From a virus, in the IMG/VR virus record IMGVR_UViG_3300025286_000158, positions 1 through 22,342 of that record: a stretch of DNA of 22,342 bases; one strand, given 5' to 3'. Each line of letters starts with the position of its first letter. Within the stretch, counting starts at the first letter, position 1. The notes below the pieces were generated by a model, which worked only from the letters and a program-made list of their open reading frames with translations, had not been told where the DNA came from and did not search any database. Below, piece by piece: positions 2,376 to 18,543 of the stretch. A program made the position numbers and the translations under genes.

Positions 2376-2850
2376 CCTCTAATGACTCACCCTCAATTTG
2401 TTTCGCATTTAGAATTGGTGCGTAGTCGTCTAGTATTTTTTTCATTTTTTCTTCCAACTGCTCTTCTGTTAGTTCCTCTAGTTTTCCAGTTTTTATTATT
2501 TTCCTGTCTATATATAGTCCTGCAGCCATACCTCTATTCTTTTCAGCGTTGGTGGCAGCGGAGAAGGCGCCTTTCTTTAAAGCGGCCTCTCTAATCATAC
2601 CTAGTTCTGCGACATGTTTGTCATAGGTAACTTCAAACTTCTTAAGTTTTTCTTCTCTTAACGCTCCAATATATTGTACTACTAGTGGAGACAACCTGGG
2701 GTTTTGTAGCTCTGAAGCTTCAACTTTAGCTCTTTTAGAACTATAACCAGCAGCTATCGCTGCATCTGAGCCTGTGGTCCTACCTTCATTGTATACCAGG
2801 TATTCAGCAAACCTCTTCTGCATTTCTGTCAATCTTTTTGCAACTCCCAT
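2311..2850 (-). CDS. terS: Terminase small subunit
   Basis: This 179-residue protein has the N-terminal terminase small-subunit pattern: residues 7-50 read LTEMQKRFAEYLV, then DAAIAAGYS, then KRAKVEASELQNPRL. This is the helix-turn-helix DNA-recognition layout of the Terminase_2 family. A central helical region (about 60-130) would oligomerise, and the acidic, serine-rich tail (150-179) is probably disordered and could contact TerL. TerS recognises the packaging site on the concatemer and hands it to TerL. Usually terS sits next to terL; here it is about 6.8 kb away on the opposite strand, sharing overlapping promoters with the 2887 gene. The ATG lies about 7 bases from a -10 box, so its mRNA may be leaderless. 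The 3' end overlaps the convergent 2052 gene by 65 bases. Confidence 0.85.
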   Translation of the reverse strand: MGVAKRLTEMQKRFAEYLVYNEGRTTGSDAAIAAGYSSKRAKVEASELQNPRLSPLVVQYIGALREEKLKKFEVTYDKHVAELGMIREAALKKGAFSAATNAEKNRGMAAGLYIDRKIIKTGKLEELTEEQLEEKMKKILDDYAPILNAKQIEGESLEVNEPSSASLHKPKESSSDPQK

Positions 2851-2851
2851 G

Positions 2852-2885
2852 TTGACAATTTAAGGTAACTGTCCTATATTGTCAA
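2852..2885. promoter_or_regulatory. Overlapping symmetric divergent promoters
   Basis: The plus promoter has TTGACA at 2852-2857, a 17-bp spacer and TATATT at 2875-2880. The minus promoter has TTGACA at 2885-2880, a 17-bp spacer and TAAATT at 2862-2857. Each -35 shares one base with the other's -10, and the outer TTGACAAT / ATTGTCAA arms make an 8-bp dyad centred at 2868.5. The start codons (2850 minus, 2887 plus) are equidistant from that centre, each about 7 bases past its -10, so transcripts should begin at or next to the start codon. Confidence 0.7.
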
Positions 2886-2886
2886 T

Positions 2887-3123
2887 ATGAAAGATGATCG
2901 AGGAGAGTTGGATTTAACCAAGCAGATAGAAGAAAAAGATGCGCTCATACAAGAATTACGTATGCGTATTAGAGATATGTTATTAATAAGTGAACAACAT
3001 AGAAGTATATTGGGAGCTGAAATAACTGACAGAAAAAGATTGGAGAAAAAAGTTAGTGACTTAAAAGTACAAATGTCAGAGTATTTAAACGTGCGTACTA
3101 AAGGAGCTGGAAGTGTTAGTTAA
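2887..3123 (+). CDS. Coiled-coil hypothetical protein, 78 aa
   Basis: The product is almost wholly helical. Residues 10-30 (TKQIEEKDALIQELRMRIRD) and 45-70 show heptad spacing of leucine, isoleucine and valine among charged residues, which fits a dimeric coiled coil. No catalytic motif is seen. It is read from the plus side of the overlapping promoter pair shared with terS, with the ATG at the predicted transcription start and no ribosome site upstream, so initiation is probably leaderless. It overlaps the next GTG start by 11 bases. The context, opposite terS, allows a role in early gene control or packaging, but this is guesswork. Confidence 0.6.
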   Translation: MKDDRGELDLTKQIEEKDALIQELRMRIRDMLLISEQHRSILGAEITDRKRLEKKVSDLKVQMSEYLNVRTKGAGSVS

Positions 3124-3343
3124 AGACTTACAACAATTTTTGGGAACATTCACAGACCGACTTAAGGGTAATGCAATTAGTCATGCTAGAATATTTGTTG
3201 AGAAGGATGGTTTCCTTGAAGAGATTAAAAGAATGGAAGTGCAGGAGCATGCTATTATTGGGCAACCAGGTTTGAGGTTAGTTATGAAGACTCAGAAAGA
3301 AAAGAAAATACACATGGACGATAAATTAATTAAACCGTATTAG
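3113..3343 (+). CDS. Hypothetical protein, 76 aa
   Basis: It begins at a GTG (3113) with AAAGGAG about 8 bases upstream inside the previous gene. The protein alternates short helices and strands (DLQQFLGTFTDRL, then ARIFVEKDGFLEEIKRMEV, then GLRLVMKTQ), suggesting a small alpha/beta fold with no cysteines or membrane segment. No family is recognised. It sits between a coiled-coil protein and a VRR-type nuclease gene in a compact plus-strand cluster. Confidence 0.55.
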   Translation: MLVKDLQQFLGTFTDRLKGNAISHARIFVEKDGFLEEIKRMEVQEHAIIGQPGLRLVMKTQKEKKIHMDDKLIKPY

Positions 3344-3345
3344 AA

Positions 3346-3504
3346 ATGAGGAAAATGGAAATAACAGATGAACAAAGAAAGCAACTTTTGGAATATTTAT
3401 CTAAAAGACCTTACGCTGAAGTGTTTACTTTAATTGCTATGTTAGTGTCTCTGAAGCCTAAACCTAATGGCAAAGAGAGAGACAAGGTTACCCCTAAAAA
3501 CTAG
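3346..3504 (+). CDS. Hypothetical protein, 52 aa
   Basis: This small ORF begins MRKMEITDEQRKQLLEYLSK. A helical N-terminus is followed by a hydrophobic patch (EVFTLIAMLVSL) that could be one short helix but is too short to call a membrane span, and a basic tail. An alternative start at ATG 3355 is close behind a GAGGA, but the spacing is very short. The last base is shared with the GTG start of the nuclease gene (TAGTG), which supports coupling. Confidence 0.45.
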   Translation: MRKMEITDEQRKQLLEYLSKRPYAEVFTLIAMLVSLKPKPNGKERDKVTPKN

Positions 3505-3881
3505 TGGGTCCAGAGCAGAAATTATACAAAAAACTTAAAGCTAAAACACCAAAAATTATTTGGAATAGGATTGAAAACCTTAGCATTCCTGGTATGCCTG
3601 ATCTATTGGGCTACAATACTTTTGGCACATTTTTCACAGTTGAACTGAAAGTAACCAAGGGTAGAAAAATTCGATTTTCACCACATCAAATTTCGTTCCA
3701 CGTGACACATCCCAACAACACATTTATCTTAGCCGAGGCCCTCGGTCCGTGTGCCGGGAATCGTTTTCACTTGTACCGTGGTTCATGCATCATGGATCTG
3801 GTGCCGGCCGGCTTGGAGCTTGAAGCTTGTTGCTTGGGGCTTGATGCTTGTAACTTATTATTCGAGAAGCTTGGAGCTTAA
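3504..3881 (+). CDS. VRR-NUC-type nuclease with repeat-derived C-terminus
   Basis: Residues 1-90 fit the VRR-NUC branch of the PD-(D/E)xK nucleases: an early Glu (E4), G30-x-PD (D33), ELK (E47, K49) and a downstream Q62 after a basic stretch. Such enzymes act on flapped or branched DNA, and phage copies are thought to help replication or recombination intermediates; this is family knowledge. It starts at a GTG overlapping the previous stop. From residue 101 onward (nt 3804) the frame runs through a CCGGCCGG palindrome and GCTTGNN heptads, giving a Cys/Leu-rich tail (GLELEACCLGLDACN) unlike any nuclease end. The original stop was probably near there and was replaced by repeat insertion. It ends 4 bases into the convergent 3878 ORF. 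Confidence 0.75.
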   Translation: MGPEQKLYKKLKAKTPKIIWNRIENLSIPGMPDLLGYNTFGTFFTVELKVTKGRKIRFSPHQISFHVTHPNNTFILAEALGPCAGNRFHLYRGSCIMDLVPAGLELEACCLGLDACNLLFEKLGA

Positions 3882-3889: not shown

Positions 3890-4093
3890 CATGAGTCTGA
3901 ATGCAAACTTAGCATAAGACCTTGCTCTAAGTTCACCGTCGCTTGAAGCTTGGACCTTGGCGCTCGGCCGTTCCGGCCGGGATTCTTGTTGCTTGGAGCT
4001 TGTTGCTTGAAGCTTGTCGCTTGCAGCTTGGAGCTTTCTTCTCTCAGCTCTCAACTCTGCGTAATGTTTTGGGTGCCTGAATGTAAATGTCAT
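3878..4093 (-). CDS. 71-aa ORF built largely of heptad repeats
   Basis: The start overlaps the stop of the upstream GP88-like gene by one base (TAATG), which argues for translation. Residues 1-18 (MTFTFRHPKHYAELRAER) and 52-71 (ending YAKFAFRLMGKP) look like unique sequence. Residues 19-51 are encoded by GCTTGNN heptads and a CCGGCCGG element read on the minus strand, giving a seven-residue period (KLQAASD, KLQATSS, KQQESRP). It appears to be a small protein split by insertion of the repeat, which keeps frame because the array has no stops in this frame. Function is unknown. Confidence 0.5.
   Translation of the reverse strand: MTFTFRHPKHYAELRAERRKLQAASDKLQATSSKQQESRPERPSAKVQASSDGELRARSYAKFAFRLMGKP
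3941..4039. repeat. GCTTGNN heptad array 2 with internal CCGGCCGG
   Basis: Heptads from 3941 (GCTTGAA, GCTTGGA, then two degenerate) are followed by CGGCCG (3965-3970) and CCGGCCGG (3973-3980). Seven further in-phase units run from 3984 to 4032 and a decayed one follows. It lies inside the 71-aa minus-strand ORF. Confidence 0.85.
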
Positions 4094-4728
4094 TAGTGTT
4101 TGCTGTAACTAACATTAGCAAATGATTTTGTCCAACACTTCCGACAATTTCTACACTTGCCTCCTTGCTTAGGGGCTGGGCAGCTGGCATTCTTCGTCAC
4201 GACCGATGATGTGTGAGTCCAGGCTGTGGGGGCCGGCCCGTCAATCTTGGATCCTGATAAACGAATAACTAAATTGCTTGGAACTTCTTCAGGATCTGGC
4301 AGGTATGACCGCTCTTGTGTTGGCAGCCAGTGCATGGTGTCAGGTGTTAACCTGCAGACTGTTAAAATTTTTTGCATGTGATCATGAGACTGGACGTCGC
4401 CCGCGTCATGCCATCTAAACCAGCGTTGCCTCTTCACTTGTGCAACCATGGCCGTGACCCAGGAATCATGAACCAGGCTAGCCAGTCTAAAGTACTGAGC
4501 TTTTTTAATTGCTGGGTATCTTGTGTAGTTTCCTTTGAGTGCATAGCAGCCGAAGCACGGTGTGCCTTCAACCTTACGTAGCTTAGAGCCTGTTTGACAC
4601 TCCCATGCTGGGAGGCTGTAGCTCAGGCCAGGCATTTTTTTTGTACGGGTCATTGAGCCCGTTATTTTTTTTGCTTCTTTTACTTTCATACTTTCTAATT
4701 TCATTATACTATTTAATTGTGGCAGCAT
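4093..4728 (-). CDS. GP88-like phage protein (cysteine-rich)
   Basis: This 211-residue protein resembles the phage Gene product 88 (GP88) family as I remember it. A GLSYSLPAWECQTGSKL start region (residues 34-50, C44) leads to TPCFGCYALKG (C58, C61), a WFRWHDAGDVQSHDH motif (103-117), a LPTQERSYLPDP segment, and a C-terminal Cys cluster (C183, C192, C195, C198) likely to bind a metal. Biochemical function is not established to my knowledge. The start is uncertain: ATG 4728 gives an unusual 8-residue leader, and ATG 4704 (MKLESMKVKEAKK) may be the true start; neither has a clear ribosome site. A GGCCGGCC copy (4231-4238) is read in frame near residue 165. It is the third gene of the minus-strand operon. 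Confidence 0.7.
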   Translation of the reverse strand: MLPQLNSIMKLESMKVKEAKKITGSMTRTKKMPGLSYSLPAWECQTGSKLRKVEGTPCFGCYALKGNYTRYPAIKKAQYFRLASLVHDSWVTAMVAQVKRQRWFRWHDAGDVQSHDHMQKILTVCRLTPDTMHWLPTQERSYLPDPEEVPSNLVIRLSGSKIDGPAPTAWTHTSSVVTKNASCPAPKQGGKCRNCRKCWTKSFANVSYSKH

Positions 4729-4733
4729 TAAGG

Positions 4734-4807
4734 CCGGCCGGGAAGCTTGGTGCTTGAAGCTTGCCGCTTGCGGCTTGAAGCTTGGTGCTTGAAGCTTGTT
4801 GCTTTTT
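4734..4807. repeat. CCGGCCGG plus GCTTGNN heptad array 3
   Basis: CCGGCCGG (4734-4741) is followed from 4745 by eight perfectly phased heptads (GCTTG plus GT, AA, CC, CG, AA, GT, AA, TT) and a ninth running into a T tract. This is the cleanest array in the window. It is intergenic, between the 57-aa gene and the GP88-like gene. Confidence 0.9.
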
Positions 4808-5928: not shown

Positions 5929-5993
5929 GTTGTCCCGTTATTTTGAGTTTTTAATTCCGTAAATAACAAAAGGGAATATAATCCTATTTAATG

Positions 5994-7513: not shown

Positions 7514-7863
7514 TGCCTAATAAACATTTTTGCCAAGGGCCGGCGTGTCATACTAGAGAAACATCAGATAGGTTTCTAAAATCTAAAGGCATAATTCGTG
7601 GGAGATATGCGTATGCTAAAATAGATGAAACTAGATATTATCACGAGTCAGATAAATACTTTTGCTCTCAATCTTGCAAACTGCAATGGCTTAATGAAAA
7701 CATGCAGAATATTGAACGAGGTATTCCTGTTCCATTTATTCGTGAGCGAAGAATAAGTGAGGGATATGAGAAAGCAACAGAAAAACATAGGTGGGGAAAT
7801 TATTCAACAATACGAAAAATACCTGTTGACAATGATAATGATAATGATAGGATTATCCCATAA
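7513..7863 (+). CDS. Zinc-finger-like protein, 116 aa
   Basis: Two cysteine pairs, C7/C12 and C51/C55 (FCSQSC), frame a 40-residue segment. The FCSxxC motif with a following aromatic helix resembles MYM/FCS or TRASH-type treble-clef zinc fingers, so metal binding is likely and nucleic-acid or protein binding possible. The C-terminus contains an Asp/Asn triplet repeat (VDNDNDND) encoded by an ATGATA repeat at 7832-7849 that overlaps a promoter for the next gene. It starts on a one-base overlap with the previous stop. It carries a near-copy of the GC palindrome (7538-7544) in its fourth block of codons (QGPAC). Confidence 0.6.
   Translation: MPNKHFCQGPACHTRETSDRFLKSKGIIRGRYAYAKIDETRYYHESDKYFCSQSCKLQWLNENMQNIERGIPVPFIRERRISEGYEKATEKHRWGNYSTIRKIPVDNDNDNDRIIP
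7826..7853 (+). promoter_or_regulatory. Candidate promoter inside the 7513 gene
   Basis: TTGACA (7826-7831), a 16-bp spacer and TAGGAT (7848-7853) precede the DUF3846 gene at 7879. The spacer is an ATGATA repeat, so its length could vary by slippage. The same TAGGAT is used by the minus-operon promoter at 5614-5619. Confidence 0.45.
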
Positions 7864-16059: not shown

Positions 16060-18543
16060 ATGGCAGATATAGATAAATCACTCCCGAATGTTCGACACGA
16101 AGTAAAAATACCTGGTGCACAACCACCAACCGATGTTGACATCACGGAAGCACAACAAAGACAACCTGTAGAAGTAACACCTGACGAAGAAGGTGGTGCT
16201 ACAGTAAATTTCGAACCAAGTGCCGTGAACCAAGCTCAGTCAAACACGCACTTTGATAACCTAGCAGACATATTACCAGAAACAGTTTTAGATCCAGTTG
16301 GCATACAGCTTAGACAAAATTTCACAGACTATAAAATGTCTAGAAAAGATTGGGAACAATCTTATACAAATGGTTTAGATCTTTTAGGATTTAAATACGA
16401 TAATCGTAATGAACCTTTTCAAGGAGCAAGTGGAGCTACACACCCCGTTCTAGCTGAAGCTGTTACACAGTTTCAAGCACTAGCTTATAAAGAATTATTA
16501 CCAGCAGATGGACCTGTCAGAACTCAAGTTTTAGGCATATCCAATCCTGCTAAAGAAGCTCAAGGACAAAGAGTTAAAGATTTTATGAATTATCAACTTA
16601 TGGATCAGATGAAAGAATATGAACCAGAGTTTGATCAAATGTTATTCCATCTGCCCTTAAGCGGCTCAACCTTTAAGAAAGTTTATTATGACGATCTTTT
16701 AGGCAGAGCCGTATCAAAATTTATACCTGCGGATGATCTAGTCGTTCCGTATACAGCTACCTCATTAGATGATGCGGAAGCGGTTGTTCATGTCGTAAAG
16801 ATTTCAGAAAATGACTTACGTAAACAGCAGGTCAATGGCTTTTACACTGACATTGAGTTGACAAAACCAGTGTCAGATGTGAATGCAGATAAAGTTGTTG
16901 ATAAGAAAAGAGAATTAGAAGGAACGTCTAAATCTACCAGAACAGAAAGCGTGTATACTCTTTTAGAGTGTCATGTTAATTTAGATTTAGAAGGTTTCGA
17001 AGATGTTGGCCAAAATGGAGAGCCAACTGGAATAAAATTACCTTACGTCGTTACAGTCGAAGAAGGTAGTCAAAAAGTTTTGTCGATAAGACGAAACTAC
17101 GCGCCCAATGATCCACTAAGAAATAAAGTTCAATATTTTGTCCACTTCAAATTTCTGCCAGGACTAGGATTTTATGGCTTTGGACTCATTCATATGATTG
17201 GCGGTTTGAGCAGAACTGCAACTTCTGCTCTCCGTCAATTATTAGACGCAGGGACTTTATCAAATTTACCAGCAGGATTTAAACAGAGAGGTGTTAGAGT
17301 CAAAGATGACGCTGCACCGATACAACCTGGAGAATTCAAAGATGTTGACACACCAGGTGGTAATCTAAAAGATGCATTTGTATTTTTACCATACAAAGAA
17401 CCTTCAGCTACATTATTGCAGTTGATGGGAATTGTAGTAACAGCAGGACAGAGATTCGCGTCCATTGCTGACATGCAGGTCGGGGACGGGAACCAAGGCG
17501 CAGCCGTTGGTACGACCGTAGCTCTTTTGGAACGTGGTTCAAGGGTAATGTCAGCAATCCATAAAAGACTATACGTAGCCCTAAAACAAGAATTTAAATT
17601 ACTAGCAAAAGTATTTGCTCAGTACCTACCACCAGAATATCCTTACGATGTTGTTGGTGGACAAAGAAATATTAAAGTTCAAGATTTTGACGACAGAATA
17701 GATATACTACCTATTGCAGATCCAAATATATTTTCAATGTCACAAAGATTAACATTAGCTCAAACTGGTTTGCAGTTAGCAATGTCAAATCCTCAACTGC
17801 ATAATTTGTATATGGCGTTTAGAAAAATGTATGAAGCATTAGGAATAAAAGATATTGACAGAATTTTACCTCCACCTCCACCCAATGCACCTAAAGATCC
17901 ATCGTTAGAGCATATTGATGCTTTAGGTGGAAAACCTTTTCAAGCATTTCCTGGTCAGGACCACAGAGCACATGTTACAGCTCACTTAAATTTTATGTCA
18001 ACTAACATGGTTAGAAATAATCCAATGGTTATGGCTTCTTTACAGAAAAATATTTTAGAACATATTAGTTTAATGGCACAGGAACAAGTGCAATTAGAAT
18101 TCAATGAGCAAATTCAACAACTACAAGCTTTACAACAACAAGCTGCACAAAATCCACAAGCGCAACAACAAGTACAATCGATAACACAACAGATTGAAGC
18201 AAGAAAAGCAGTGTTGATTGCAGAAATGACTGAAGATTTCATGAAGGAAGAGAAGAAGATTACATCTCAGTTTGATCATGATCCATTACTTAAACTTAAA
18301 TCAAGAGAAGTTGATTTAAGAGCAATGGAAAATGAACGTAAACAACAAGAGATGCAGAAGAAAACTGAAATTGATCAAGCTAAATTAGTTCAAAATAGAG
18401 ATATTACGGATGACAAGCTTGAACAAGACGAAGAATTAGCAGAGTTAAGAGCTGATACTTCGCTAGAGAAGCAAGAAATGGCAAATGAGAATAGATTGAC
18501 ACTTGCAAGAATGAAGCCTAAAACAAATGGAAGTTCTAGATAA
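16060..18543 (+). CDS. Portal protein, P22-like
   Basis: At 827 residues this is a large portal of the P22/podovirus type: the dodecameric ring at the capsid vertex through which TerL threads DNA. Supporting segments are an acidic N-terminus, an early FTDYKMSRKDWEQ.. helix and GLDLLGFKYD block, PFQGASGATHPVLAEAV (about 125-141), a LPLSGSTFKKVYYD segment with a following FIPADDLVVPYTA strand, and a GATVAL-like AAVGTTVALLERGSRVM helix (about 482-498) typical of portals. The C-terminal 200 residues hold a proline stretch (PPPPPNAP), a long Gln-rich coiled coil (QQLQALQQQ.., about 685-715) and a charged helical barrel tail. AGGAG lies just upstream of the ATG. The neighbours, giant proteins before and scaffold and capsid genes after, support the call. 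Confidence 0.88.
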   Translation: MADIDKSLPNVRHEVKIPGAQPPTDVDITEAQQRQPVEVTPDEEGGATVNFEPSAVNQAQSNTHFDNLADILPETVLDPVGIQLRQNFTDYKMSRKDWEQSYTNGLDLLGFKYDNRNEPFQGASGATHPVLAEAVTQFQALAYKELLPADGPVRTQVLGISNPAKEAQGQRVKDFMNYQLMDQMKEYEPEFDQMLFHLPLSGSTFKKVYYDDLLGRAVSKFIPADDLVVPYTATSLDDAEAVVHVVKISENDLRKQQVNGFYTDIELTKPVSDVNADKVVDKKRELEGTSKSTRTESVYTLLECHVNLDLEGFEDVGQNGEPTGIKLPYVVTVEEGSQKVLSIRRNYAPNDPLRNKVQYFVHFKFLPGLGFYGFGLIHMIGGLSRTATSALRQLLDAGTLSNLPAGFKQRGVRVKDDAAPIQPGEFKDVDTPGGNLKDAFVFLPYKEPSATLLQLMGIVVTAGQRFASIADMQVGDGNQGAAVGTTVALLERGSRVMSAIHKRLYVALKQEFKLLAKVFAQYLPPEYPYDVVGGQRNIKVQDFDDRIDILPIADPNIFSMSQRLTLAQTGLQLAMSNPQLHNLYMAFRKMYEALGIKDIDRILPPPPPNAPKDPSLEHIDALGGKPFQAFPGQDHRAHVTAHLNFMSTNMVRNNPMVMASLQKNILEHISLMAQEQVQLEFNEQIQQLQALQQQAAQNPQAQQQVQSITQQIEARKAVLIAEMTEDFMKEEKKITSQFDHDPLLKLKSREVDLRAMENERKQQEMQKKTEIDQAKLVQNRDITDDKLEQDEELAELRADTSLEKQEMANENRLTLARMKPKTNGSSR

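Follow-up and report, generated by a model that had tools for sequence, protein, structure and literature searches.

A 34-bp element between the terminase small subunit gene (terS) and a small divergent gene is likely to be a dedicated bidirectional leaderless promoter of HTVC027P/HTVC023P-type marine phages, in which the two directions would be mutually exclusive and the divergent side favoured. The window analysed here is the whole of a 22-kb IMG/VR fragment from a phage related to Pelagibacter phage HTVC027P. Its TerL protein is nearest to that of HTVC027P (71.5%), followed by those of phage 023Pt_psg01 and HTVC023P. HTVC027P and HTVC023P infect Pelagibacter, which ranks with the most abundant marine bacteria. 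In the proposed mechanism, a host sigma-70-type RNA polymerase would bind the same stretch of about 34 bp in either orientation, and in each orientation transcription would begin at, or a few bases from, the A of the start codon. One orientation would yield a leaderless mRNA for the terS side and the other a leaderless mRNA for the small divergent gene. Because each promoter's -35 hexamer adjoins and shares sequence with the other's -10 hexamer, the two polymerases would be mutually exclusive. The divergent promoter would take priority and keep terS expression low until its own strength falls or the terS side receives assistance, probably from a factor that reads the conserved spacer. The features of the region are collected in Table 1.

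Table 1. Positions of the promoter element and its neighbouring genes in the window
Feature	Position	Strand	Remarks
34-bp element, two fully overlapping divergent promoters	2852-2885	both	present in 80/80 loci retrieved with TerS
Divergent-gene promoter, TTGACA-17-TATATT, 11/12	2852-2880	+	-35 2852-2857, -10 2875-2880
terS promoter, TTGACA-17-TAAATT, 10/12	2857-2885	-	-35 2885-2880, -10 2862-2857
terS start codon (predicted +1)	2848-2850	-	6 nt between -10 and ATG
Divergent-gene start codon (predicted +1)	2887-2889	+	6 nt between -10 and ATG
Spacer core, GTTACC	2864-2869	-	invariant; GTT spans roughly -19 to -17 in the terS promoter
Freely varying 5 bp separating two conserved blocks	2870-2874		from locus comparison
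terS, terminase small subunit, 179 aa	2311-2850	-	PHROG 51, E=1.3e-11; Pfam Terminase_2 PF03592, above cut-off
First divergent gene, 78-aa protein, coiled-coil-like matches	2887-3123	+	from profile search
Downstream small genes	3113-3343, 3346-3504, 3504-3881	+	3504-3881 matches PHROG 2165

The gene at 2311-2850 is identified as terS by its matches to TerS-family profiles (PHROG 51; PF03592), and of 144 elements, 141 have a member of the 78-aa divergent protein's family beside them. HTVC027P gp31 gave no alignment with the second divergent gene (3113-3343), and homology between the two was rejected. A protein encoded further along, at 4093-4728 on the minus strand, matches Pfam GP88 and seems unlinked to the element. 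Arrays of a 7-bp unit (GCTTGAA/GCTTGGA) lie within and between the small genes at 3811-3851, 3985-4036, and 4742-4798, and the gap between gp34 and gp35 of HTVC027P holds repeats that resemble them. An Rfam search of the window returned no match, and a structured RNA was rejected.

The initial annotation had described two TTGACA-17-(-10) promoters lying in complete overlap on opposite strands, and its coordinates proved exact. Each -35 touches the opposite -10, as it had proposed, through one base common to both (2857 and 2880). The flanking arms, TTGACAAT at 2852-2859 and ATTGTCAA at 2878-2885, do form a dyad, with perfect 8-bp arms in the window. The two ATGs are equidistant from the centre at 2868.5, the A of each lying 18.5 bp from it as the seventh base past its own -10. 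The predicted starts in the window are 37 bp apart and the -10 hexamers are distinct (2875-2880 and 2857-2862). With two opposite-strand -35/-10 pairs whose polymerase sites overlap, the element has the layout of overlapping divergent sigma-70 promoters. Lying beyond the reach of the initial annotation, which had the single sequence to work from, were the invariant spacer core, the deep conservation, and the weaker terS-side promoter.

Conservation was assessed in 80 loci of a first clade that were retrieved with the TerS protein alone, so that the DNA element played no part in their selection. The element is present in all 80, 76 times directly before terS and 4 times separated from terS by an insert, which is 40 nt long in L052, L054, and L070 and comprises an extra gene in L027. 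In the three 40-nt inserts GTAGCCA can pair with TGGCTAC, and terS would there have a leader. The consensus on the terS strand is TTGACAATATA-N5-GTTACC(Y)TAA(A/T)..GTCAA-ATG; among 59 distinct loci most positions outside N5 are invariant, including GTTACC in 59 of 59, and N5 varies freely. Pairwise identity is 0.89 over the 34 bp versus 0.70 at the third codon positions of terS. Across 33 distinct clade-1 elements, the divergent promoter has the -10 TATATT in all 33 and the -35 TTGACA in 27 or TTGACT in 6, and the terS promoter has the -35 TTGACA in all 33 and TAAATT, TAAAAT, or TAAAAA as its -10.

A pooled set, assembled from a motif scan of viral contigs and from other loci, holds at least 198 loci with the element; since it was partly selected by motif, it informs on context and not on frequency. 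Among the loci listed from this set, terS was found downstream by tblastn in 195, two more end just past what is evidently the start of terS, and the remaining one, L200 from Aquimarina, resembles a chance match; the largest distance from element to terS among the matches listed is 500 bp. The motif scan of genome contigs gave only three matches. Two come from marine bins and lie on phage-like contigs that carry terS; the third is again the Aquimarina locus, and a host regulatory motif was rejected. A generic multi-site phage promoter was likewise rejected, because each locus, like the complete HTVC027P genome, has one copy of the element.

A sister clade, found by searching with HTVC027P terS, carries a diverged form beside terS in HTVC027P and its relatives, CAT-GGG-TTGATTTATA-N5-AGTTGTATTAAATATCAAG-T-ATG. 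In HTVC027P it lies between gp31 and gp30 and occurs once in the genome. The layout is alike while the letters have changed: the distance from ATG to ATG is typically 38 nt in both clades, and the spacer core is GTTGTA or GTTATA instead of GTTACC. What both clades keep is a -35-like hexamer (TTGACA, TTGATA, or TTGACT) and a TATA-type -10. In clade 2 the terS-side promoter is a poor match to the consensus (7-9 of 12) and may therefore depend on assistance or see little use. Among 22 distinct clade-2 elements, TTGAT is paired with ATCAA in 19 and with GTCAA in 3. The expectation that relatives would retain the symmetry and both ATG distances was thus borne out for the promoters and the distances, but arm symmetry is lost in those 3 of 22. 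Neither -35/-10 pair is lost in clade 1, and both are recognisable in clade 2, the terS side weakly. More distant relatives show the same idea in other letters (e.g., CATTGACA...TGTCAATG in L236), and the element is absent near terS in HTVC023P, 023Pt_psg01, and DSL-LC04. By eye, a TATA-type -10 is seen only 8-9 nt before the terS ATG in HTVC023P (L087, about 5940-5962) and 023Pt_psg01 (L086, about 5960-5992), so leaderless terS may predate the mirror element.

Among 150 distinct clade-1 elements, the terS-side ATG lies 1-2 nt past the element in 143 and the divergent ATG 1-4 nt from it in 137. The first gene on the terS side can be terS or one of several unrelated small genes, which form five unrelated clusters besides terS, and a gene inserted before terS normally starts at the usual terS spot, 1-2 nt after the element. 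No Shine-Dalgarno-like site precedes terS or the divergent gene in the window. Ahead of terS, such a site was found in 0 of 62 loci classed as having terS immediately behind the element versus 19 of the 48 remaining loci, a contrast that is, if anything, understated because the remainder includes about ten drifted elements. Short leaders follow the other sigma-70-like promoters in the window (5642-, 7245+, and 7826+), and an AAAGG site is present in two of the three; other HTVC027P promoters have leaders of 17-28 nt, most of which contain an AAAGG-type site. These phages seem to have in common a second class of promoter, TTGACA-16/17-TAGGAT, whose leaders measure 17-28 nt and include an AAAGG site; examples are found at 5642-5614 (-) and 7826-7853 (+) in the window and at gp34, gp36, and gp38 of HTVC027P. 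HTVC027P gp35 (L283, about 18180-18219) may be another leaderless gene: 6 nt separate its ATG from the end of a TTGACT-17-TAAAAC promoter match, and it lacks a Shine-Dalgarno site.

Leaderless mRNAs occur in alphaproteobacteria, with 119 leaderless transcripts reported in Zymomonas mobilis (PMC7566282). As predicted at the element, the start codon of these transcripts is at the 5' end of the RNA; unlike it, their promoters are not presented in the available text of that report as mirror-image pairs sharing a site (PMC7566282). At both genes flanking the element, the predicted +1 lies no more than 5 nt from the start codon and a Shine-Dalgarno site is lacking, as is expected of leaderless genes. 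Given the start-codon register, the lack of Shine-Dalgarno sites, the leaders seen elsewhere, and the alphaproteobacterial precedent, leaderless initiation in both directions is the simplest reading, in agreement with the initial annotation. This sequence evidence strongly supports two divergent promoters, both apparently leaderless.

Full overlap of the promoters implies, on physical grounds, that two polymerases at the element would exclude each other, a claim that we regard as physically reasonable. Opposing polymerases cannot co-bind bidirectional promoters, yet five such promoters tested in E. coli had low basal activity, and interference between them appeared only upon activation of one side (PMC12825309). 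The overlapping, apparently leaderless pair proposed at the outset is strongly supported, but its description as a switch goes beyond overlap, since a switch requires feedback or a regulator, none has been identified, and overlap alone need not interfere. Among 55 distinct elements, the divergent promoter matches the consensus as well as the terS promoter in 17 and better in 38, and never more weakly. A match at least as good in 55 of 55 suggests that the divergent gene would have priority, if strength follows consensus. In HTVC027P, gp30 is the first gene on the terS side and gp29 is terS. The published infection RNA-seq describes gp30 as the sole member of its cluster, with one expression peak at 3 h and another at 12-15 h (PMC12753301); the main text of that paper says nothing about gp31 or gp29 expression, and the hint concerns gp30 only. 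The name ArfA for gp30 rests on the published paper only, as its Pfam match is below the cut-off (20.2 vs 25.5 bits).

Several other explanations of the element have to be weighed. Promoter-like matches are frequent in this AT-rich DNA, with 36 in 8 kb of the window against 25 expected, which could favour a chance resemblance. The plus-strand pair is nevertheless the top promoter match in the scanned region (11/12), and a mirror pair scoring at least 9/12 on both strands occurs once in the 22-kb window, at this element only. Dinucleotide-preserving shuffles produced a mirror pair of at least 10/12 on both strands in 3 of 400 cases and one with both ATGs in register in 0 of 400, even at the laxer threshold of at least 9/12. 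In the junctions of both clades (n=64), 61% score at least 9/12 on both sides versus 0.3% of shuffles. Together with retention of the element in 80 of 80 relatives, the shuffles led us to reject a chance origin, whose probability is negligible. Packaging sites are often near terS, and the element lies at the terS start in nearly all loci as a single copy per genome, as might be expected if it were chiefly a packaging recognition site for TerS (a pac or cos region), its promoter likeness being secondary. We consider this very unlikely: what is conserved on both strands corresponds to correctly spaced promoter hexamers, and even unrelated genes have their start codons in register. A fixed cos end also predicts contigs that start at the element, but among the 80 terS loci the nearest contig end is 118 nt before terS.

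The dyad invites the further reading that TTGACAAT and ATTGTCAA form the binding site of a single palindromic repressor, with the promoters incidental. The perfect arms in the window fit such an operator, as does the joint change of both arms between the clades. The arms are unequal in 3 of 22 clade-2 elements, however, which weakens a strict palindrome; in clade 1, variation of the inner arm letters is confined to one side, and the changes preserve a -35-like hexamer rather than symmetry. A palindromic operator is thus highly improbable, and the dyad is probably in the main a by-product of the two overlapping promoters, since the mirror layout of promoters with 17-bp spacers makes a dyad by itself and the arms are not always symmetric. 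The spacer is another matter. Sigma-70 has no need for the invariant GTTACC, so the element exceeds two core promoters, and it is plausible that a further regulator, or TerS, acts there. Promoters are known to benefit from a T at -18 (PMC10268837), and the GTT at about -19 to -17 could partly reflect this effect; the remaining core suggests a further protein. It is possible, though below an even chance, that the promoter pair doubles as an operator at which a phage regulator, such as TerS or the divergent protein, reads the spacer and picks the direction, acting as an early/late switch. Consistent with this, GTTACC is needed by neither promoter, the GTTGTA/GTTATA core of the sister clade changes alongside the arms as expected if a diverging protein reads the spacer, the element occurs once and is linked to terS, and gp30 is expressed in two phases. 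Against it stand the part that the -18T effect could play, the failure to identify a regulator gene, and a simpler cause for co-conservation with terS, which may merely need its promoter. A fuller version, in which two leaderless promoters have merged with a site for a co-evolving TerS or divergent protein into a 34-bp single-copy composite switch, is rather unlikely.

Among known systems, the PRM/PR region of phage lambda has the leaderless cI mRNA beside a divergent promoter and is likewise a phage divergent pair with a leaderless mRNA. Lambda, however, has adjacent promoters with an operator each, whereas the element has both promoters on one 34-bp stretch; a leaderless mRNA is made on a single side in lambda, and its gene encodes a repressor, not a packaging protein. 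The bidirectional promoters of Warman, Grainger, and colleagues are common in bacteria and have a shared -10 with starts 18, 10, or 23 bp apart (PMC12825309, PMC10268837). Like the element, they are pseudo-symmetric DNA that sigma-70 RNA polymerase can occupy in two mutually exclusive orientations. The element falls outside the definition of Warman et al., having separate -10s that each touch the opposite -35 and predicted starts about 37 bp apart; its two RNAs are both coding and apparently leaderless, and its -35s are at or near consensus. Overlapping divergent promoters also act in the Pc/Pr switch of pLS20 (PMC4207663) and in the EcoRV and CfrBI restriction-modification systems (PMC5333194), where polymerase sites overlap as in the element and polymerase itself regulates. 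These systems differ from it in having a known regulator gene (RcoLS20 or a C protein) and another architecture; Pc lies 461 bp from its gene (PMC4207663), and the EcoRV C mRNA is not leaderless (PMC5333194), unlike the mRNAs predicted here.

Our literature search found no description of the element, no promoter study of HTVC023P-type phages, and no comparable leaderless terS promoter. As a layout with -35 on -10 that is leaderless on both sides, placed at a packaging gene, and conserved over a large phage group did not turn up in the literature searched, we regard the element as a new variant: overlapping divergent promoters are already known, and the conserved, apparently leaderless version with -35 on -10 at terS is new. 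It provides a natural, strongly conserved example of overlap between -35 and -10, a layout unlike that of the bidirectional promoters reported to date, which have a -10 in common. The conserved site apparently sets terS against the divergent gene and is a small, directly testable control point, for which a cultured model exists in HTVC027P on HTCC1062, with published RNA-seq. If the composite switch were true, the choice between early and packaging-phase transcription would be made at one site across many abundant SAR11-type phages.
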